Source: Granulimonas faecalis | Lineage (GTDB): Bacteria; Actinomycetota; Coriobacteriia; Coriobacteriales; Atopobiaceae | Assembly (NCBI RefSeq): GCF_022834715.1 | Contig: NZ_BQKC01000001.1 | Location: 1,524,501-1,588,500, forward strand | DNA length: 64,000 nt | Reading direction: 5' to 3' | In this document: in pieces, positions 38,588 to 52,925 of the stretch | How positions within the stretch are numbered: position 1 is the first letter of the stretch | Layout of the letters: each line of letters begins with the position of its first letter | Notes under the pieces: model-generated | Seen by the model: the letters and a program-made list of their open reading frames with translations, nothing else | Databases searched by the model: none | Told to the model about the DNA's origin: nothing | Program-made: the position numbers and the translations under genes

Positions 38588-41500
38588 CTAGGCCACCTGC
38601 ACCTTGCCCTGGGCGTCCACGAGGGCCGCCACCTCGGCGTAGAGCACCACGGACTGGGCGTCCACGGTCACGGGCATGGAGAGGCGCATGAGCCCCGCGC
38701 CACCGTCCACGTAGAGCTCCAGGGAGTCGAGGCCGCCGTGGCGTGACGCCGAGCGGGAGAGCGCCGAGAGGAACTCCTTGGTGACCCCTTCCGCGGGCAT
38801 GAGCACCTCGAGGGTCTTGGGGCGGTTGGCCTCGTCGTCGAGCAGCAGCGGCTCCACCGACTGGGCCATGAACTGGTCGCCGCGGTCGGAGCGGTCCACG
38901 CGGCCCTCGATGCGCAGGAAGATGTCGCCGTCCTCGTCGGGGAACAGGAGCGACGCGCACTTGGAGTAGGTCTTGGGAAAGACCACGACGTCGATCTTGT
39001 TCTCCATGTCCTCCAGGGTGACGATGGCCATGGGGTCGCCCTTCTTGGTGGTGCGCTTCTGCACCGTCGAGGCCATGCCGGCGAGCCAGATGGTGCGCTC
39101 GTCGTCAACGGCGCGCATCTCGGTGACGCCGTCGTCGGCCGTGTGCTCGTAGCCGTTGAGCACCTCGCCGATGGAGTAGCTCCGGGCCTTGGTGAGGGCG
39201 TACTCATAGGGACGCAGGGGGTGGTCGGACACGTAGATGCCCAGCACCTCCTTCTCCTGGGAGAGCTTGAGCGTGCGGTCCCACTCCTCACCGTCGGGTT
39301 CGGGGACGTCGGAGGCGAAGCCGGAGTCGGCGACGTCGGCGAACATGTCGAAGAACGAGACCTGACCGGCGGCGCGGTCCTTCTGGCGCTTCACGGCGGC
39401 GTCGAGGATGTTCTCGGGGTTGGCCTTGTCGACGAAGTGGGCCAGCTGCTTGCGGGTGTAGCCCGTGGAGTCGAAGGCCCCGGCCTTGATGAGGGCCTCG
39501 ATGACGCGGCGGTTCACCTGCGTGGTGTCCACGCGATCGCAGAACTCGTGGATGGTGGCGAAGGGGCCGCCCGCGGCGCGCTCCTTGAGGATGAGCTCGG
39601 CCGCCCCCTCGCCCACGCCGCGGATGCCGGCGAGGCCGATGCGGATGCCCTCGGGCACGGCGGTGAACTCGATGCCGCTCTCGTTGACATCGGGGGGCAG
39701 CACGTCGATGCCCTCCTGGCGGCAGGCGCCGATGTAGTGCACGATCTTCTCGGTCTTGCCGGTGTAGCTGGTGAGCACGGCCGCCATATACTCGCGGGGG
39801 TAGTAGGCCTTGAGCCAGGCGGTCTGCATGACGAGGATGGCGTAGCCGGCCGAGTGGCTCTTGTTGAAGGCGTAGGAGGCGAACTCGAGGACGTCGTCCC
39901 AGATCTTCTGGGCCACCTCGCGCTTGTAGCCGTTCTTGACCGCGCCGTTGACCCAGTGGTCGTAGGTGGTCTCATCGGCGCCGTCGTCCCAGTGGAAGAC
40001 GGTGCTCGTAAGCAGCTTGATCTTCTTCTTGGCCACGGGCTTGCGGATGCGGCTGTCGGACTCGCCGGCCGAGAAGCCGCTCATCTTGACCGAGATCTTC
40101 ATGACCTGCTCCTGGTAGACCATGGTGCCGTAGGTCTCGTCCAGGATGTCGGACAGGCGCTCGTCGTAGAAGGCCACGGGCTCGCGGCCGTTCATGCGGT
40201 TGATGTAGGAGTCCACCATGCCGGCGCCCAGGGGGCCCGGGCGGTAGAGGGCGATGAGGGCCACCACCTGGCGGTACTCCTTGGGCTGCATGGACTTGAT
40301 GGTGGCGGTCATGCCGCCGGACTCCACCTGGAAGACGCCCGCGGTGTGGCCGCGGCCCATGAGGTCGAAGATGGCCGGGTCGTCGAAGGGAATCTTGTCG
40401 ACGTCGATGTCCACGCCGGTGGACCCCTCCTTGAGGGTGGCGCGCACGGCCTCGGGGGCGGCCTCGGCGTCGGCGGCGGTACCGTGGTTGGCGCGGATGT
40501 TGGCGAGGGCCTTGGAGATGACCGTGAGGGTGCGCAGGCCCAGGAAGTCCATCTTGAGCAGGCCCATGTCGGCCACGTCGTGGCCCTCGTACTGGGTGAT
40601 CTCGAACCCGCCCTTGGTGTCGAGCTTGGTGGGCACGTGGTCGTTCACCGGCGTGGGGGCGATGAGCACGGCGCAGGCGTGGACGCCCTCGCCTCGGGTG
40701 AGGCCCTCGATGGAGAGGGCCGTGTCGATGATGTCCTTGGACTCCGGGTCGTGGCCGTAGGCGTCGGCGAAGTCCGGGCTGTAGAGGTCCTCCTTGCCCG
40801 GGGTCTTGTCGAGCACCATCTTGAGCTTGGCCTTGGGGTCGCCCGACACCATCTTGGAGAGCTTCTGCCCCATGTAGACGGGCTTGCCCAGCACGCGGTT
40901 GGCGTCGTTGATGGCCTGCTTGGCCTTGATGGTGGAGAAGGTGATGACGTGGCACACGCGCTCGGGGCCGTAGAGCTCGCGCACGTGCTGCACGACCTCC
41001 AGACGCCGCTCGTCGTCGAAGTCCATGTCGATATCGGGCATCTCGGAGCGCTCCGGCGAGAGGAAGCGCTCGAACATGAGGCCGTTCTCCAGGGGGTCGA
41101 ACGTGGTGATGTTCATGGCGTAGGCCACGATGGCGCCGGCGGCGCTGCCGCGGCCCGGCCCCACGCCGATGCCGTGGTCCTTGGCCCACTGCACGTACTC
41201 CTGCACGATGAGGAAGTAGTCGGCGAAGCCCTTCTCGCAGATGACCTTGTACTCGTACTCGAAGCGCTCGAGGATGGACTCGCCGCCGATCTCGCGCTCG
41301 CGCCAGTCGTCGCCGTAGCGCTTGGCAAGGCCCTCCTCGCACTCCTTGCGGAACCGCTCCTCGGAGGTCTCCCCCTCGGCGAGGCCGGGGAACTTGGGCA
41401 GGTACATGTGGGTCCAGTCGAGCTCGAAGTCGCACTTGTCGGCGATCTCGAGGGTGTTGTCGCAGACCTCGGGGCACCAGTCGAAGAGCGCGCGCATCTC

Positions 41501-42454
41501 CTCCTCGCTCTTCATGTAAAACTCGCCCTGACCCGACCCCGGCGGGTTCTGCGTCATCTGCATGCGGTTGGTGTCGTCGAGGGTCTTGCCCATGCCGATG
41601 CAGCTCACCACGTCCTGCATGGCGGCGTCGGTACGGGTGAGGTAGTGGAAGTCGTTGGTGGCCACCACCTTGACGCCGATGGCCGCGGCCATCTCCAGGA
41701 GCGTCTCGGTGAGGCGGCGGTCGGTCCAGCCGGGGAAGCGGTCCTCGAAGTCGAGCCCGTGCTCCTGGACCTCGAGGTAGAAGTCGCCGGGGGCGAAGGT
41801 CTCCTTGAAGGTCTTGGCCCAGCGCAGGGCCTCGCCGGGGTTGCCGGTCATGATGTTGCGCGGGATGATGCCGGCCACGCAGGCGGAGGTGCAGATGACG
41901 CCCTCGGAGTGCTCCTGGAGCATCTCGAGCGTGACGCGGGGCTTGTAGTAGAAGCCCCGGGTGGCGGCGTCCGACACGATCTTCATGAGGTTGACGTAGC
42001 CGGTCTCGTTCTTGGCCAGGAGGATCATGTGGTAGTACTCGGGCTTGCGGTCGCGCCGGAGCTCGGAGTCCGGCGTGAAGTAGACCTCGCAGCCGAAGAT
42101 GGGCTTCACGCGGGGCTTGGGCTTGACCTCGTCCAGGGGGCGACCGGCCTCGTGGCAGGCCATGTCGGCCTCCCACTGGGCGTGGCGGCGCTCGTCGGAC
42201 GCGTCGGGCTCCTCCACGGGGCGGCCCTTCTCGAGGTTGTCCTTGTCGTGGAACCACTGGTCGTAGTCGGGCTCCGCGTGGTTGACGGCGTCGGTGGCCC
42301 GGGCGAGGGCCGGGACGCCGCACATGTTGCCGTGGTCGGTGATGGCCACGGCGGGCATGCCGAGCTCGACGGCCCGGGCGACCATGTCCTCGACGCGCGT
42401 GGCGCCGTCGAGCATGGAGAAGTCGGTGTGGTTGTGCAGGTGCACGAATGCCAT
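38588..42454 (-). CDS. dnaE: DNA polymerase III alpha subunit
   Basis: 1288 residues. N-terminal PHP domain begins MAFVHLHNHTDFSMLDG with intact metal His residues. The polymerase acidic pair lies in PDIDMDFDDERR (about residue 475). A helix-hairpin-helix region (GIRGVGEGAAELIL) and an OB-fold (TIWLAGMASTVQKR, then GDPMAIVTLEDMENKID in part) follow. An insert of about 57 residues splits the PHP domain (residues about 57-116, rich in Glu/Asp/Arg), making the protein longer than the usual 1150-1200. It is the replicative polymerase. It is divergent from the membrane gene at 42624; the ATG at 42454 was chosen because longer extensions have no PHP homology. Confidence 0.96.
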   Translation of the reverse strand: MAFVHLHNHTDFSMLDGATRVEDMVARAVELGMPAVAITDHGNMCGVPALARATDAVNHAEPDYDQWFHDKDNLEKGRPVEEPDASDERRHAQWEADMACHEAGRPLDEVKPKPRVKPIFGCEVYFTPDSELRRDRKPEYYHMILLAKNETGYVNLMKIVSDAATRGFYYKPRVTLEMLQEHSEGVICTSACVAGIIPRNIMTGNPGEALRWAKTFKETFAPGDFYLEVQEHGLDFEDRFPGWTDRRLTETLLEMAAAIGVKVVATNDFHYLTRTDAAMQDVVSCIGMGKTLDDTNRMQMTQNPPGSGQGEFYMKSEEEMRALFDWCPEVCDNTLEIADKCDFELDWTHMYLPKFPGLAEGETSEERFRKECEEGLAKRYGDDWREREIGGESILERFEYEYKVICEKGFADYFLIVQEYVQWAKDHGIGVGPGRGSAAGAIVAYAMNITTFDPLENGLMFERFLSPERSEMPDIDMDFDDERRLEVVQHVRELYGPERVCHVITFSTIKAKQAINDANRVLGKPVYMGQKLSKMVSGDPKAKLKMVLDKTPGKEDLYSPDFADAYGHDPESKDIIDTALSIEGLTRGEGVHACAVLIAPTPVNDHVPTKLDTKGGFEITQYEGHDVADMGLLKMDFLGLRTLTVISKALANIRANHGTAADAEAAPEAVRATLKEGSTGVDIDVDKIPFDDPAIFDLMGRGHTAGVFQVESGGMTATIKSMQPKEYRQVVALIALYRPGPLGAGMVDSYINRMNGREPVAFYDERLSDILDETYGTMVYQEQVMKISVKMSGFSAGESDSRIRKPVAKKKIKLLTSTVFHWDDGADETTYDHWVNGAVKNGYKREVAQKIWDDVLEFASYAFNKSHSAGYAILVMQTAWLKAYYPREYMAAVLTSYTGKTEKIVHYIGACRQEGIDVLPPDVNESGIEFTAVPEGIRIGLAGIRGVGEGAAELILKERAAGGPFATIHEFCDRVDTTQVNRRVIEALIKAGAFDSTGYTRKQLAHFVDKANPENILDAAVKRQKDRAAGQVSFFDMFADVADSGFASDVPEPDGEEWDRTLKLSQEKEVLGIYVSDHPLRPYEYALTKARSYSIGEVLNGYEHTADDGVTEMRAVDDERTIWLAGMASTVQKRTTKKGDPMAIVTLEDMENKIDVVVFPKTYSKCASLLFPDEDGDIFLRIEGRVDRSDRGDQFMAQSVEPLLLDDEANRPKTLEVLMPAEGVTKEFLSALSRSASRHGGLDSLELYVDGGAGLMRLSMPVTVDAQSVVLYAEVAALVDAQGKVQVA

Positions 42455-42623
42455 GGCATGACTCCGTAGGGTCGTAGGGACGGTCGTGCCGCGTTGGCGG
42501 GTCCTTGATACTACCCGACACGGGGGCTGGCGGAGAAGGTTCTGGAAACGCCCCACGCCAAGAAAACGGGGACCGACTCGGGGCATATTCCCCTTCCTGG
42601 CAGGAGACGAGGAGGAAACCGCC

Positions 42624-45443
42624 ATGGACACGACCCATCTCATCGACAAGACCGGGGCGGGGTCGGTCATCCACTCGTCCACCGTGGCCGAGGAGCGCTT
42701 CGTCAACCTCTCCCACACCGACCCCCTGGCCGCCTTCTGCTTCGCCGTGGGCGTGCTCTCCATCGTCCTCATCGCCGCATCCATCGGCTCCGCCAGGCTC
42801 AAGAGCCGCTTCAAGTGGCTGGGGACCATGGGCGGCAAGTTCGCCCTCATCCTCGTGGGGGCGTTCTTCCTCCTGCTGCCCATCGCCATCCACCTGCCCG
42901 GGTCCCACGGCGACCTCTGGCCCGGGCTCGCCCAGGCGGTGCCGGCCACGTTCTACTTCACCGTCAACATCACCGGCGTGGCGGGCGAGCTGGAGGAGTG
43001 GACGCCGGTCATCCACCAGGTGATGGGCGACGGGTTGCTCTCCCTGCTCTACTACCAGGTGCTCTGCTTCTACACCGTGGCGGCGCCGGTCATGCTGGCC
43101 CTCACGGCCGTGGACTTCTTCGCCAACGGCTTCACGGGCCTGCTCCTCTATGTGGAGAGCGCCAAGAAGTCGGTCCTGGGGCGCGACATCTACGTGTTCT
43201 ACGACCTCAACGACAACACCGTCACCCTGGCCAAGGACCTGCTCGACCACGTGCAGAAGGGCGGCAGGCGAAGCCGCTCCATGCCGCTCCTGGTGTTCTG
43301 CGACCTGTCGAGCGCCGCCGTCGCCGACGGCAACGGCATGGCCCAACAGGTGCGTGAGGAGGCCTACGGCTGCGCCACGGTGGTGTTCACGCCCCTGGGG
43401 CTCGAGAGCGTGCCCGGCCACCTGGCGCGCTGGACCCAGACCCGCTGCAACGTCTACTACCTCGTGGTATCCGACGACACCGACGACAACGTGCGCGCCA
43501 CCATCGCCCTGTGCGACACCCTCACGAGCCAGATGGTCTCGTGGGAGATGGGCGCGCGGGCCTGGGACGTCGACCGCGTGGGCGCGCGGCCCTCCCTCAC
43601 CGACCGCACGCGCCGCTACGCCGGCAACATCCACGTGTGGTGCGTCCACGGCAACCCCGACGACGACCTCATCTTCGACTCCCTCCCCCACCGCCGCCCC
43701 GACGAGGAGGTCCTGGCGCGCCTCTTCAGGCGCAACCGCGGCCACGGCTCCAAGGAGGAGCGGCGCCGTCGCATCGTGGAGGGCCTCTCCCCGCTCATGG
43801 TGCGGGTGCGCGACCTCGTGGAGGTGCGCCTGCTCTCCGAGGAGCGCCAGGTGGTGTGGGACTCCCTCGTGAGCCACCCGCTCACGGAGGTCCTCGACCC
43901 CGTGGACGTCTCGGCGGGGCTCGTGCCCCGGCAGCGCCTCGTCGTACTGGTGCTCGGCGTGGGGTCGTTCGGCGCCGAGGCGGTGCGCGCCGCCTTCTGG
44001 TTCGGCCGCCTGCCCGGAGTGGAGCTCCGCATCGTGGGCGTGGACCTGGAGGCGGGGAAGCGCCTGGGCGAGCTCGCCGCCATGTGGCCCGGCCTCATGG
44101 CCGAACGCGTGCCCGAGGGCGAGCCGTCGTGCCTGGCCGACCTCGCCGAGCCGCTGGCCGAGGACGGGGCGGAGGGGAAGGCGCTGCCCACCGTGTGCCT
44201 CGTGCAGGCGGACGCCCGCACCGAGGACCTCTCTCCGCTGCTCGCCGGCAAGGAGGTGGAGGCTCTCTGCTGGGGGCCCGACGGGGCCGGCACCTGCACC
44301 GTCTCCATCGGCAGGGAGAGCCGCGTCTACACCGTGACGTGCCTCGGAGACGACGAGGTCGACCTCGACGTGTCCCTGAGGCTGCACCGCACCCTCTCCG
44401 AGCGCGTGCTCGCCGGCACGCTCGACGAGGCTACGCCACCCCAGTGCAACCCTCTGGTCTCAGTGCTCGTGCGCAGCGAGGAGGTCCTGGAGTCCGTGCG
44501 CAACATCTCCGGCGGCGAGGAGCGGTTCGGCCTGGTGCCGTTCGGCTCCACCGAGGACGTCTTCTCCTACGACTCCATCCTGGCCGCCCCCTGGGAGGAC
44601 GCCTCGGTCAACCTGCAGGCCGCCTACGACGGCGCCCAGGCGGCCGCGGCGGGGAGGCCCACCGAGGTGGGCCGCGGCCGGGCCATGGAGGACTACAACG
44701 CCTACGAGGTGAGGAAGCTCTCCAACCGCGCGGCCACGCGGTTCACGTTCTACCGCCTGTGGTGCCTGGGACTGGGCGACGGGGCGCAGCGCGACGTGTC
44801 GGGCGAGCTCCAGGGCCGCTGGCTCGCCAAGCTGGGTGTGGCCCCTGTGCTGGAGCGCCTGGCCGCCGGCGACGCCTGCGCCGTGGCCGCGCTGGCCGGC
44901 GTGCGCCCGGGGCCCGCCGGCACCGGTGCCGAGGAACGGGCGGCCCGCCGCAGGGCCCTGGCCGCCGGCGACGCGCGCCTGCGCTCCGAGCACCCGCTCC
45001 TCTGCGCCATGGGCGACCTGGAGCACGCGCGGTGGTGCGCCTTCCTCAGGGCCAACGGCTGGCGCGCCCTGGAGGGCGGGTTCGACGGTCTGGAGCGCAC
45101 CATGGCGTTCGTGGGCCGCTCACCCCGACCCGGCAAGCCCCACCCCCACGAGTCCATGCGCCTCATGCGCCACTACTACCTCGTGGACGACCCCGCCACC
45201 TACCGTGACCACGGTGCCGACTGCGCAGACGACCCGGCTGCCTGCGACCGCATGGTGGTGGCCGAGTGCCTGCGGATCCTCAGCCACGGCTACGTGGCCC
45301 CCAAGGTGGGGCTCCCCAGGGGCGGCGCCCCGGCCGACGGTGGGGCGGAACGGGAAAGGCCCGCCGCCCCCGGGGGAAGGGAGGACGGCGGGCCCGGGAA
45401 GGCCGGTTCCGGCGGTGGGAACGCGACGGGCGCTCAGTCGTAG
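42624..45443 (+). CDS. membrane protein with two nucleotide-binding-like domains and RyR-like C-terminus
   Basis: 939 residues from an ATG preceded by GAGGAGGAAACC. Membrane segments lie at about 34-54, 70-91 and 138-178, with a hydrophobic, pore-like loop (VPATFYFTVNITG) between the last two. A first alpha/beta domain starts DIYVFYDLNDNTVTLAKDLL, TrkA-N-like but with NDN where a Gly-rich loop is expected. A second Rossmann-like fold carries LVLGVGSFGAEAVRAAFWFG (about 440-460). Near residue 795 MGDLEHARWCAFLRANGW matches the E-H-x-R-W ... G-W core of prokaryotic RyR domains, followed by GKPHPHE. This suggests a ligand-gated ion channel. Poorly described family. Its end overlaps the MarR gene by 10 bp. 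Confidence 0.7.
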   Translation: MDTTHLIDKTGAGSVIHSSTVAEERFVNLSHTDPLAAFCFAVGVLSIVLIAASIGSARLKSRFKWLGTMGGKFALILVGAFFLLLPIAIHLPGSHGDLWPGLAQAVPATFYFTVNITGVAGELEEWTPVIHQVMGDGLLSLLYYQVLCFYTVAAPVMLALTAVDFFANGFTGLLLYVESAKKSVLGRDIYVFYDLNDNTVTLAKDLLDHVQKGGRRSRSMPLLVFCDLSSAAVADGNGMAQQVREEAYGCATVVFTPLGLESVPGHLARWTQTRCNVYYLVVSDDTDDNVRATIALCDTLTSQMVSWEMGARAWDVDRVGARPSLTDRTRRYAGNIHVWCVHGNPDDDLIFDSLPHRRPDEEVLARLFRRNRGHGSKEERRRRIVEGLSPLMVRVRDLVEVRLLSEERQVVWDSLVSHPLTEVLDPVDVSAGLVPRQRLVVLVLGVGSFGAEAVRAAFWFGRLPGVELRIVGVDLEAGKRLGELAAMWPGLMAERVPEGEPSCLADLAEPLAEDGAEGKALPTVCLVQADARTEDLSPLLAGKEVEALCWGPDGAGTCTVSIGRESRVYTVTCLGDDEVDLDVSLRLHRTLSERVLAGTLDEATPPQCNPLVSVLVRSEEVLESVRNISGGEERFGLVPFGSTEDVFSYDSILAAPWEDASVNLQAAYDGAQAAAAGRPTEVGRGRAMEDYNAYEVRKLSNRAATRFTFYRLWCLGLGDGAQRDVSGELQGRWLAKLGVAPVLERLAAGDACAVAALAGVRPGPAGTGAEERAARRRALAAGDARLRSEHPLLCAMGDLEHARWCAFLRANGWRALEGGFDGLERTMAFVGRSPRPGKPHPHESMRLMRHYYLVDDPATYRDHGADCADDPAACDRMVVAECLRILSHGYVAPKVGLPRGGAPADGGAERERPAAPGGREDGGPGKAGSGGGNATGAQS

Positions 45444-45895
45444 GCCACGTTGCGGATCATCGCGGCCATGGTGCGGGCGCTCACCGAGAGGTCGCTCTCC
45501 TGCACGCCGTCGAGCAGCGAGCAGATCATGCGGCTCTCGGCCTCGGCGTAGCGGGGCGCCTCGCAACGGGCCTTGCGGGTGGCCTCCACGCGGAGGGCCC
45601 GGTTGTCGATGTGGGACGGCTGGAGGGTCACGTAGCCCGCACGCTCGAGGCCCGACACGAGCTTCTTCACGTTCTGGCGCGAGTACCCCATGTACGAGGT
45701 GATGTCCGAGAGCGATATCTCGGGCGACCGCGCGGCGAGGACGACCTTGAGGGCCTCCCACTGACGGAACGTGATGTCGGAGGCCTCCGTCTCGAAAAGG
45801 GCGGGTATTCTCGTGGTGAGAAGCCGTGTGCCCTCGATGATCAGGCGGGCGGCATGCTCCTGCTCCTCCTGCAGCTCGACGCTCTCCCTCTCCAT
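45434..45895 (-). CDS. MarR-family transcriptional regulator
   Basis: 153 residues with a winged helix: helix-turn-helix SLSDITSYMGYSRQNVKKLV and wing YVTLQPSHIDNRALRVEAT. Dimerisation helices flank it. Its final 10 bp overlap, tail to tail, the end of the RyR-like membrane gene, so the two are convergent. Its own promoter likely lies in 45896-46092, where TATAAG at 45961-45966 on the minus strand is a possible -10. Ligand and targets unknown. The MYSRQNVKKLV helix resembles MarR members that control neighbouring transporters or stress genes. Confidence 0.88.
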   Translation of the reverse strand: MERESVELQEEQEHAARLIIEGTRLLTTRIPALFETEASDITFRQWEALKVVLAARSPEISLSDITSYMGYSRQNVKKLVSGLERAGYVTLQPSHIDNRALRVEATRKARCEAPRYAEAESRMICSLLDGVQESDLSVSARTMAAMIRNVAYD

Positions 45896-49287: not shown

Positions 49288-51435
49288 TTACTTGCGGCGC
49301 TTTCGGGCCGACGGCTTGGCCGCGGACCTGCGGCCGGCCGGGGACTTCGCGGGCTTGGCCTCGGGATCGGCGGGCTTGGCCTCCGCCGTGGCCGCAGGGG
49401 CCTTGTCGGCGGCGGGCGCCGGGGCCTTGGCGGCCTTAGGCGCGACCGCCTTCTTGGCCGGAGCCGTCGCGGCCTTGGTCTTGGGGGCCGCCGGGGCCTT
49501 GGCGGCGGCCTTCGGCTTGGAGGCGGCCGCGACCTTCTCGACCTTGGCCGCGGCAGGCTTGGTCTTGGACGGGGCGGCCTCGGCGGACGAGGACGGCTCA
49601 GGCGCCGCGGCCGCCTTGGTCGCAGCCGTCGTCTTCTTGGCGGCGGTCTTCTTAGCCCCGGTCGTCTTGGCAGTCGGCTTGGCTGCAGCCCCGGTCGTCT
49701 TGACCCTGGCGGCTGCCTTGGCGGGAGACGCCTTCTCAGTAGCCGGCTCGGCCTTCTTGGCCGCGGTCTTCTTGGACGCCGCCTTTGCCGCCTTCCTCGC
49801 CGCAGGCTCGGCCTGCTTCGCCGCGGGCTTGGCCGGCTTCGTAGCAGCCTTCTCCGCCGCCCCCTTATCCGCAGCGGCCGGCTCGGCCTCCGCCGCGGGT
49901 ACTTTGGACATGGCCTCCACCAGCAGCTCGTTGAAGCGCTTGGGGTTGCCGGAGCCCTTGGCGCGCTTCATGCACTGGCCCACGAGAAAGCCCACCACGC
50001 GCTGGTTGCCGTCCCTGAACTGCGCCACCTGGTCGGGGCAGTCGGCTACCACGGCCTCCACGACAGGCAGCAGCGCACCGTCGTCGGTGACCTGGCGCAT
50101 GCCCTTGGCGTCCACGACGGCGTCGGGCGTCCGGTCGGTGCCGGCCATGAGCTCCACGACCTCGCGGCCCTGCCTGGCGGTGATGGCGTCCTCGGCGAGC
50201 AGCGCGGCGAGGCCGGCCACCTGGGCCGGAGAGACGTCGGATGCCGAGAAGCCCAGACCGGCGGCGTTGAGGTGGCCGGCAACGTCGTTCACCAACAGGT
50301 TCGCGATGCCCTGGGCCAGCTTGGGCGCGCCCTCCACGGCGGCGTCGAAGAACGCGGCGGCATCGGGGTCGGCCGCCAGCTGGGCGGCGTCGGCGCGCTT
50401 CAGGCCGAGGTCGGCCACATAGCGGTCGCGGCGGGCGTCGGGCAGCTCGGGGAGCTCGCGGCGGCACCCCTCGACGAACTCGTCGGACAGGTCGAAAGGC
50501 GCGAGGTCGGGGTCAGGGAACAGCCGGTAGTCGTCGGCCGTCTCCTTCACGCGCATGACCACGGTGCGCTTCTTGGAGGGCTCCCAGTGGCGGGTCTCCT
50601 GGAAGACCTCTCCGCCGCCCTCGAGCACCTCGGCCTGGCGCCGGATCTCGTACTCGAGCCCGTCGTGCAGACTCTTGAAGGAGTTGATGTTCTTGAGCTC
50701 GGTCTTGGTGCCCAGCCCCTTGGAGCCGCGGCGCCGGAGGCTCACGTTGCCGTCGCAGCGCATGGAGCCGCTCTCCATGGAGCAGTCGGAGATGCCCAGC
50801 GCGAGGAACGTGCGGCGGAGCTTCTCCATGAAGAGGCGGGCCTCCTCGGGGGTGCGGAGGTCGGGCTCGGTCACGAGCTCGATGAGCGGGGTGCCGCAGC
50901 GGTTGTAGTCGACGAGCGACTCCGTGGCGCTGGCGATGCGGCCCTCCTCGCCGCCCACGTGCACCATCTTGGCCGCGTCCTCCTCCATGTGGATGCGCAG
51001 GATACGCACCGGCGCGACGTAGCCGTCGTCCAGCGCCTCCAGGCCGGCGCGGTCCTCGCGCTCCTTGGCGCCGGGGCCCTGTACCTCGAGGTCGAGGTGG
51101 CCGTGCATGCAGAACGCCACGGGCCCCTGGGTGGTCTGGAAGTTCTTGGCCATGTCGGGATAGAAGTAGTGCTTGCGGTAGAACATCGAGTGCTTCTCGA
51201 TGGTGCAGTTGGTGGCGAGGCCCGCCTTGACGATGGAGCGGATGGCCTCCTCGTTGGGCACCGGCAGCGCGCCGGGCATGCCCAGGCACACCGGGCACAC
51301 GTTGGTGTTGGGCTCGTCGTCATGGCTGAGCCTGCAGCCGCAGAACATCTTGGTCTCGAGGGTGGTGAGCTCGGTATGGACCTCGAGGCCGATGACGGCC
51401 TCCCAGTCCTTGAGCACCTCGTTCAGCGTCTTCAT
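49288..51435 (-). CDS. gatB: Asp/Glu-tRNA amidotransferase subunit B with histone-like tail
   Basis: 715 residues. The first 508 are a normal GatB: WEAVIGLEVHTEL start, CGC...CPVCLGMPG zinc region (four Cys), LVDYNRCGTPLIELVTEP, ESGSMRCDGNVSLRRRG, and a YqeY-like tail domain to FNELLVEAMSK. From about 511 to 715 the protein is a Lys/Ala/Pro-rich tail with AAKK and PAKKA patterns and ending RRSAAKPSARKRRK, like histone H1 or mycobacterial HupB tails. GatCAB amidates mischarged Glu-tRNAGln/Asp-tRNAAsn. The tail would be disordered and very basic, perhaps for tRNA, rRNA or DNA binding. ATG at 51435 overlaps gatA by ATGA. Confidence 0.95.
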   Translation of the reverse strand: MKTLNEVLKDWEAVIGLEVHTELTTLETKMFCGCRLSHDDEPNTNVCPVCLGMPGALPVPNEEAIRSIVKAGLATNCTIEKHSMFYRKHYFYPDMAKNFQTTQGPVAFCMHGHLDLEVQGPGAKEREDRAGLEALDDGYVAPVRILRIHMEEDAAKMVHVGGEEGRIASATESLVDYNRCGTPLIELVTEPDLRTPEEARLFMEKLRRTFLALGISDCSMESGSMRCDGNVSLRRRGSKGLGTKTELKNINSFKSLHDGLEYEIRRQAEVLEGGGEVFQETRHWEPSKKRTVVMRVKETADDYRLFPDPDLAPFDLSDEFVEGCRRELPELPDARRDRYVADLGLKRADAAQLAADPDAAAFFDAAVEGAPKLAQGIANLLVNDVAGHLNAAGLGFSASDVSPAQVAGLAALLAEDAITARQGREVVELMAGTDRTPDAVVDAKGMRQVTDDGALLPVVEAVVADCPDQVAQFRDGNQRVVGFLVGQCMKRAKGSGNPKRFNELLVEAMSKVPAAEAEPAAADKGAAEKAATKPAKPAAKQAEPAARKAAKAASKKTAAKKAEPATEKASPAKAAARVKTTGAAAKPTAKTTGAKKTAAKKTTAATKAAAAPEPSSSAEAAPSKTKPAAAKVEKVAAASKPKAAAKAPAAPKTKAATAPAKKAVAPKAAKAPAPAADKAPAATAEAKPADPEAKPAKSPAGRRSAAKPSARKRRK

Positions 51436-52925
51436 GCCAGGGAGCCTCCCCTTCCAGCGAAGCCGGGTGCCACGGCGCCGGCACCCACGGCCCTCTCGAG
51501 GGCACGGGCGAACGTGAGCAGCGTGCGGTCGCGGAACGCCGGGGTCTGCAGCTGCACCGACACGGGCATCCCCGAGTCGTGGCCGAGGCCCATGGGCACC
51601 GAGACCGAGCCGTTGCCGGCGATGTTGCTCGAGATGGTGAACGTGTCGGACAGGTACATCTGCGTGGCGTCGCCCATCTCGCCGGAGAACCACGCCGTGC
51701 GCGGGGCCACCGGCATGAGCAGGCAGTCAACCCTGGAGAAGGCGTCGGCGTAGTCGCGGCCGATGAGGGTGCGCGCCGAGAGGGCGCCCATGTAGTAGCG
51801 GTCGTACACGCCCGAGGAGAGCAGGTAGGCGCCCAGGAGCTGGCGGCGCTTGGCCTCGGTGCCGAACCCGTGGGCGCGCGACAGCGACGTCTGGCGGGCC
51901 AGCGTGCCGCAGCCCTGCTCCATGTAGCCGTAGCGCACGCCGTCGAAGCGGGCCAGGTTGGAGAAGGCCTCGCAGGGGCCGATGACGTAGTAGGCGTTGA
52001 TGGCGGCGTCGATGTGGGGCAGCTCGACGTCCACGATGGTGGCGCCGGCGTCCTCGAGGGCGCGGCAGGCGGCCCCGCAGGCCTCCTTGACCTCGTGCGA
52101 GAGGCCCTCGGCCTCGAGGAGCGAGCCCACGACGCCCACCGTGCGGCCCTCGACGGGGTCGTCGAGGTGTTCCAGGAAGTCCACGGGAACGTCCTGGCTC
52201 GTGGAGTCGAGCGGGTCCCTGCCGGGGCCCACGAGCGCGTTCATGGCGCGGGCGACGTCCTCGACGCAGCGGCCGAACGGGCCCACCTGGTCGAGGGACG
52301 AGCCGAACGCCACGACGCCGTAGCGGCTGACCGCCCCGTAGGTGGGCTTCATTCCCACGACGCCGCAGAACGACGCCGGCTGGCGGATGGATCCGCCCGT
52401 GTCGGAGCCCAGGGCCAGCGTGACCTCGCCGGCGGCCACCGCGGCGGCCGAGCCGCCCGAGGAGCCGCCGGGCACGCGGCGGGTGTCCCAGGGGTTGCGG
52501 GTCTTCTGGAAGTGGCTCGTCTCGGTGGAGGAGCCGAAGGCGAACTCGTCCATGTTGGTCTTGCCGATGGGCAGAGCGCCGGCGTCGACCATGCGGCGCA
52601 CGCAGGTGGCGGTGTAGGGCGAGTCGAACCCCTCGAGCATGCGGCTCGCGCACGTGGTGTGGGAGCCCTCGAGGTTCATGTTGTCCTTGAAGGCCACGGG
52701 CACGCCGGCCAGGGGGCCGAGCACCTCGCCGGCCGCGCGGGCGCGGTCGAGGTCGTGGGCGCGGTCGAGAGCCATGTCGTAGGTGATCTCGAGGAACGCG
52801 TCCACGTCGCGGTCGCGCTGGGTCACGGCGTCGAGGGCCGCGTGGCAGACCTCGGTGGCAGAGAAGTCGCCCGCCGCCACGCCGGCGGCGATCTGGGAGC
52901 TTGTGAGCTGGTCGATGTTGGCCAT
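51432..52925 (-). CDS. gatA: Asp/Glu-tRNA amidotransferase subunit A (amidase)
   Basis: 497 residues with the amidase-signature triad: Lys80 in VAFKDNMN, the cis-Ser in GGSSGGSAAAVAAG (about 155) and the nucleophile Ser in SDTGGSIRQPA (about 179). It releases ammonia from glutamine and feeds it to GatB. The ATG at 52925 shares a base with the gatC stop (TGATG); a GTG one codon upstream also overlaps. The order gatC-gatA-gatB matches the usual operon and shows that GlnRS and/or AsnRS may be absent in this organism. Confidence 0.97.
   Translation of the reverse strand: MANIDQLTSSQIAAGVAAGDFSATEVCHAALDAVTQRDRDVDAFLEITYDMALDRAHDLDRARAAGEVLGPLAGVPVAFKDNMNLEGSHTTCASRMLEGFDSPYTATCVRRMVDAGALPIGKTNMDEFAFGSSTETSHFQKTRNPWDTRRVPGGSSGGSAAAVAAGEVTLALGSDTGGSIRQPASFCGVVGMKPTYGAVSRYGVVAFGSSLDQVGPFGRCVEDVARAMNALVGPGRDPLDSTSQDVPVDFLEHLDDPVEGRTVGVVGSLLEAEGLSHEVKEACGAACRALEDAGATIVDVELPHIDAAINAYYVIGPCEAFSNLARFDGVRYGYMEQGCGTLARQTSLSRAHGFGTEAKRRQLLGAYLLSSGVYDRYYMGALSARTLIGRDYADAFSRVDCLLMPVAPRTAWFSGEMGDATQMYLSDTFTISSNIAGNGSVSVPMGLGHDSGMPVSVQLQTPAFRDRTLLTFARALERAVGAGAVAPGFAGRGGSLA

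Follow-up and report, generated by a model that had tools for sequence, protein, structure and literature searches.

The question raised by this locus is what kind of membrane protein is encoded by a long open reading frame which an earlier, sequence-only reading had described as carrying a pore-like segment, two nucleotide-binding folds and a RyR-like domain, perhaps acting in stress or defence. The window, that is the whole stretch of 64,000 nucleotides of Granulimonas faecalis DNA that was analysed, contains this ORF at 42624-45443 (+). It runs from an ATG at 42624 through a stop ending at 45443 and encodes 939 amino acids; from the ORF itself, its orthologs and an AlphaFold model these are divided into a membrane (TM) module, an RCK1-like domain, an RCK2 domain and a RyR-like domain. 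A Shine-Dalgarno-like purine-rich run, AGGAGACGAGGAGG, lies immediately 5' of the ATG. Use of an alternative in-frame start, GTG at 42486, would add 46 amino acids; homology begins only past 42624. Matches were found in 18 of 101 genomes of the same family, and since the full-length orthologs (46-55% identity) span several genera, the ORF is a real gene. The close relatives named in a scan of the genome collection are Kribbibacterium absianum, Olsenella sp. KGMB02461 and Atopobiaceae MAGs; the far relatives, with 20-29% identity over the best segment, come from rumen and gut bacteria, mostly Clostridia. The columns P419, L420, G445, W459, G461, D577 and G641 are invariant in an alignment of 23 rows (A3), and an EHxRWxAFxxxxG block is invariant or almost so across all rows reaching that region.

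Scans of the 939-residue protein against Pfam, NCBIfam and PADLOC gave no match even at E <= 10, a PDB sequence search gave no credible match, and a search of viral contigs gave none. Scattered Pfam and NCBIfam matches, each in a single member among the 23 relatives, were read as chance. AlphaFold was run on alignment A3 and gave a model with a pLDDT of 82.9 and a pTM of 0.79, in which the long TM2 helix leads into two successive alpha/beta domains (187-345 and 437-660), after which helices extend to residue 886. The Gly/Ala/Glu-rich tail beyond it (residues 895-939; 45306..45440, +) is predicted to be disordered, with pLDDT < 50, and is missing from most orthologs.

The middle of the protein is, as modelled, a tandem RCK unit, since its best structural matches are the gating rings of DMI1/CASTOR, TrkA and GsuK. 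In VIA-align comparisons the gating ring of MtDMI1 was matched with Z 13.9 over 332 residues at 4.1 A, TrkA with Z 13.6, CASTOR with Z 13.0 and Slo1 with about Z 10; GsuK gave Z 13.4 over residues 61-655, TM helices included, but with a high rmsd of 9.7. Foldseek matches at E < 0.001 were to CASTOR and Slo1 only. The first domain (RCK1-like, residues ~187-345; 43182..43658, +), placed by AlphaFold and by VIA-align to TrkA, DMI1, CASTOR and GsuK, lacks GxGxxG and has IYVFYDLNDNT instead; F192 is kept in 22 of 23 rows and F225 in 21 of 23. The second (RCK2, residues 437-660; 43932..44603, +), placed by alignment, AlphaFold and VIA-align, carries GVGSFG at residues 445-450, the GxGxxG of a Rossmann-like fold that had been noticed in the sequence. 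D474 closes its strand 2 and is D in 9 of 10 Atopobiaceae rows and mostly S among Clostridia; structures of single KTN/RCK domains with NAD(H) match RCK2 with Z 9.8-10.9. Thus two Rossmann folds are indeed found by structure matching, but the glycine motif of a nucleotide-binding fold is kept only in the second. The window protein gives no match to PF02254 (TrkA_N) at its curated cut-off, and its short paralogs give sub-threshold matches.

The membrane module (residues 34-185; 42723..43178, +) was delimited from hydropathy, from the secondary structure of the AlphaFold model and from the alignment to GsuK, which starts at residue ~60. The windowed hydropathy maxima at residues 31-60, 65-94 and 141-167 bear out the three hydrophobic regions first read from the sequence. 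The modelled helices are TM0 (34-55), TM1 (69-90), a pore-helix-like helix (102-117), a short helix (123-134) and a long TM2 (138-185). Apart from its one extra helix the module is laid out like a pore module, and the modelled arrangement of TM, TM, re-entrant-type helix and long TM would suit a 2TM-P pore. The proposed pore-like segment is to this extent supported by the model. K+ channels carry the filter sequence TVGYG. A selectivity filter of this type is absent between the pore helix and TM2, where the segment reads FYFTVNITGVAGELEEW; a simple K+ channel was set aside on the strength of this filter sequence. The putative filter segment also differs between lineages, with ITGVAGE and VLQVSLD in Atopobiaceae as against LQTFSMDEDY in Clostridia.

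It is possible that the TM segment serves only as an anchor and that the protein does not conduct, being instead a redox or nucleotide sensor whose RCK and RyR-like domains regulate a partner. A filter region that is poorly conserved and unrecognisable speaks for such a protein, as does the low conservation of the TM segment relative to most other parts of the family; related Rossmann/RyR-like cassettes, moreover, carry other modules in place of the TM part, a Card1-like nuclease in L093, L160 and L162 and also a kinase in L093. However, the order TM-TM-helix-TM and the direct continuation of TM2 into RCK1 match those of RCK channels, and we regard a sensor of this sort as unlikely. The reading that we somewhat favour is a membrane channel built on tandem RCK domains and gated by a ligand, putatively a nucleotide.

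Beyond RCK2 lies a helical domain (residues ~684-886; 44673..45281, +) which is assigned as RyR-like from hhalign, from stepping-stone paralogs and from the mapping of RyDEP residues, and which is interrupted by a long insert at ~718-790. The E-H-x-R-W/G-W core said to lie near residue 795 is present slightly downstream, as EHARW at 800-804 and GW at 812-813, and E800, H801, R803, W804 and G812 are invariant in 22 of the 22 rows reaching that region. One objection is that the domain is an unrelated helical bundle in which the EHxRW...GW motif has arisen by chance. Consistent with this, PF02026 (RyR) was silent at its curated cut-off for the window protein (E <= 10), for the 23 relatives and across the window genome (G000), and Foldseek with the model of residues 640-893 (pLDDT 81.9) returned no RyR structure, VIA-align having been given Foldseek candidates only. 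Profile comparison, however, tells strongly against a chance motif. In hhalign the family matched ten canonical bacterial RyR domains at 95.7% with a score of 61.7, whereas 60 controls (59 column-shuffled and one reversed) scored 19.4 or less. The alignment is co-linear across both halves of the domain: taken by themselves, Atopobiaceae rows matched through the first half (94.6%) and Clostridia rows through the second (87.1%). Shorter Clostridia paralogs provide a stepping stone, the family matching the paralogs at 97.9% and the paralogs matching RyR at 97.1%, and all four of the short paralogs examined have a sub-threshold PF02026 match at the corresponding place.

The residues of the presumptive pocket are also conserved. 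In RyDEP, a phage RyR protein for which binding and cleavage of 2'/3'cADPR were reported in 2026, the ADP-ribose ligand is held by H75, W78, H100 and D117 (PMC13232231). The first three of these map to H801 (22 of 22 rows), W804 (22/22) and H850 (21/22) of the window protein, and the two share a RyR-family relationship at the profile level. Several canonical bacterial RyR domains keep the +3, +25, +42 pocket spacing of RyDEP; in the window protein H801 and W804 are exactly spaced and H850 comes after an insert. The counterpart of D117 is plausibly D875, at +25 rather than +17 from H850; it is invariant within Atopobiaceae, and the alignment there is uncertain for the Clostridia rows. Taking the profile matches and the pocket residues together, the C-terminus is best described as a diverged, insert-containing RyR-like domain that is not a member of PF02026, and a chance motif on an unrelated bundle is very improbable. 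The RyR-like domain of the sequence-only reading is in this form retained. That reading had named the lack of a structural match to RyR as a refuting sign, and the outcome is ambiguous: Foldseek with the isolated domain gave no RyR structure, whereas sequence profiles did give a match. The fold search is read as silent on this domain rather than as evidence against it.

If the window protein is a ligand-gated channel, its parts suggest how it might work. The strongly predicted chain runs from the TM module, with its pore-helix-like helix, through two RCK/TrkA-N domains to the RyR-like domain; it carries the dinucleotide-binding glycine motif in RCK2 and, in the RyR-like part, the pocket residues that hold ADP-ribose-type nucleotides in the phage protein. 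Four subunits may assemble a gating ring; an adenine nucleotide, which could be NAD(H), ADP, ADP-ribose or cyclic ADP-ribose, would bind at RCK2, at the RyR-like pocket or at both, and its binding would shift the ring such that a non-classical pore is opened or closed.

Gene neighbourhoods were compared for the Clostridia relatives and for Atopobiaceae. A 93-residue stand-alone RyR gene adjoins the family gene in 4 of 13 Clostridia genomes (G249, G252, G254, G258), and a CARF-PD-(D/E)XK nuclease gene lies beside it or in one row with it in 4 of 13 (G249, G250, G252, G259), the nuclease being identified by PADLOC CARF_PDDEXK (E 5e-31) and by Pfam Card1_endonuc (E 6e-4, under its curated cut-off). 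An AAA/M41 protein is encoded between nuclease and channel gene in G250 and G252. In locus L163 the family channel gene, a stand-alone RyR gene and a TIR gene are closely consecutive in one row and overlap; in L072 the order is CARF nuclease, channel, TIR. Ten further loci were taken as a separate, class-wide sample of stand-alone RyR genes. In seven of these ten genomes (G565, G572, G640, G646, G688, G726, G776) the stand-alone RyR has a TIR gene no more than about 1.5 kb away, and in five of the ten the RyR-adjacent TIR gene is the only TIR found genome-wide. The ten genomes hold 19 TIR_2 matches in total in roughly 23 Mb, and the probability of such closeness by chance is estimated at well under 1% per locus. 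The pairs of TIR and stand-alone 93-residue RyR (L160-L169, L125, L127) are a strong candidate for a TIR-RyR system in its own right, and TIR/RyR signalling is probably what some of the Clostridia relatives are connected to.

These neighbours raise the alternative of an immune effector channel: a TIR triggered by phage would make cyclic ADP-ribose, which would act on the RyR-like domain to open the pore, so that the infected cell is depolarised and killed, much as in a Thoeris-like system. The adjacency of Clostridia relatives to stand-alone RyR and TIR genes, the frequency of TIR beside stand-alone RyR and the activity of the phage RyR protein on 2'/3'cADPR all point in this direction, but the association is in every case one of gene neighbourhood. 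Furthermore, the expected partners were not found in the window lineage. A TIR_2 search that was positive in 4 control genomes found none in G000 nor in eight other dnaE-linked ortholog genomes, and G000 gave no match to the stand-alone RyR or CARF-nuclease profiles. An immune effector is an attractive idea for Clostridia but a weak one where the window lineage is concerned, and for the protein described here it is improbable. The suggested role in stress or defence finds some encouragement in the Clostridia neighbourhoods and is not supported for the window lineage.

In Atopobiaceae the gene instead has a fixed position. Its divergent neighbour (38591..42463, -) we take, from its sequence, to be dnaE, encoding DNA polymerase III alpha. 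When the dnaE of the window was compared by tblastn with the ortholog loci, it was found to adjoin the channel-like gene not only in the window but also in nine relatives, divergently in all except G002, where the two are in tandem. On the other side a convergent gene for a MarR-family regulator (45434..45895, -; Pfam MarR_2 E 9e-9) overlaps the end of the channel-like gene by ~10 bp; a MarR gene also adjoins the orthologs in G022 and G046. Because the dnaE locus is fixed and the TIR_2, stand-alone RyR and CARF-nuclease searches gave no match, the Atopobiaceae gene fits a vertically inherited chromosomal gene. A defence island at the window locus was considered and rejected, given the dnaE synteny in ten genomes and searches that found no partner genes. 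For the favoured reading, a nucleotide-gated tandem-RCK channel, a metabolic nucleotide would be the expected ligand in Atopobiaceae, where no signal-making partner was found, and the role would be one in housekeeping or stress.

The family can be compared with several known proteins. GsuK of Geobacter sulfurreducens is a dual-RCK, multi-ligand K+ channel activated by ADP and NAD+, and its GxGxxG...D/E motif resides in RCK2 (PMC3510474). In the window protein, too, a pore-type TM module precedes two RCK domains within a single chain, and the second RCK carries the glycine motif; unlike GsuK, a K+ channel without RyR, it has an extra first TM and a RyR-like C-terminus and lacks the K+ filter. 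Residues 187-~730 find their best Z values and Foldseek matches in the gating rings of plant DMI1/CASTOR and in Slo1/Slo2, but these have no RyR domain, other pores and ligands, and only about 10% identity. Bacterial TM-TrkA_N-RyR proteins recognised by Pfam (such as L096 in G114 and L101 in G356) have the same order of TM, Rossmann, Rossmann and RyR; they exceed the cut-offs of both PF02254 and PF02026, whereas the window family exceeds neither and is longer, with a large insert in its RyR-like part. RyDEP is a small, soluble, dimeric glycosidase that cleaves cADPR, while the RyR-like domain here forms part of a membrane protein with RCK domains. Thoeris consists of a TIR that makes a signal and an effector gated by a nucleotide. 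In their gene neighbourhoods the Clostridia relatives recall it, lying near TIR and RyR genes; the effector architecture differs and the window genome has no TIR match.

The kind of protein, an RCK-gated membrane protein or a RyR fused to TrkA_N, is thus already known to Pfam, and the window family is a diverged variant that every library searched has missed. Since no searched family model recognises the window protein, genome annotation and defence surveys that rely on these models would miss the family. A limited literature search found no description of RyR-RCK channels with TIR partners. We suggest tentatively, and with some doubt, that the family could be nucleotide-gated RCK channels of a new class, whose RyR-like domain senses signals of the ADP-ribose type; in Clostridia they would serve as effectors or co-sensors of a so far undescribed immunity of TIR and stand-alone RyR (with CARF nuclease or AAA protease in some cases), and in Atopobiaceae they would respond to an endogenous nucleotide. 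Whether cyclic ADP-ribose acts directly on the RyR domains of ion channels is a long-debated question in animal calcium signalling. A RyR-like pocket and an RCK gating ring in one bacterial protein would offer a small, testable model for a nucleotide-sensing RyR that gates a pore, and, given its gut-bacterial relatives beside TIR immune-signalling genes, gating by a signal makes a good candidate mechanism for the putative channel in the window.

Several further observations were made at these loci. The large fusion genes (L093:5166-9671, L160:3883-7995, L162:3409-7944) encode Rossmann and RyR-like parts in the middle and a Card1-like nuclease at the end, and a stand-alone RyR gene lies directly 3' of each; the L093 fusion has a Pfam kinase match, and a phosphatase-like gene, recognised by eye, lies 5' of those in L160 and L162. 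A TIR gene is near a stand-alone RyR (within about 1.5 kb) also in G015 and probably in G259. The shorter paralogs (about 600-650 residues), with cleaner RyR ends, occur in the same Clostridia genomes (L088, L089, L090, L091, L092). Directly 5' of a family member, L071:202-2226 encodes a TM and RCK-like protein with weak similarity to CASTOR (E 0.0065). A C-terminal RyR domain is also found on a kinase-like protein (L042:1-1719; kinase by eye, Pfam being silent) and on a ~570-residue protein (L043/L044). Lastly, elsewhere in the window, a GatB-like ORF (by eye; 49288-51693, -) has a ~190-residue Lys/Ala/Pro-rich C-terminal tail resembling histone H1.
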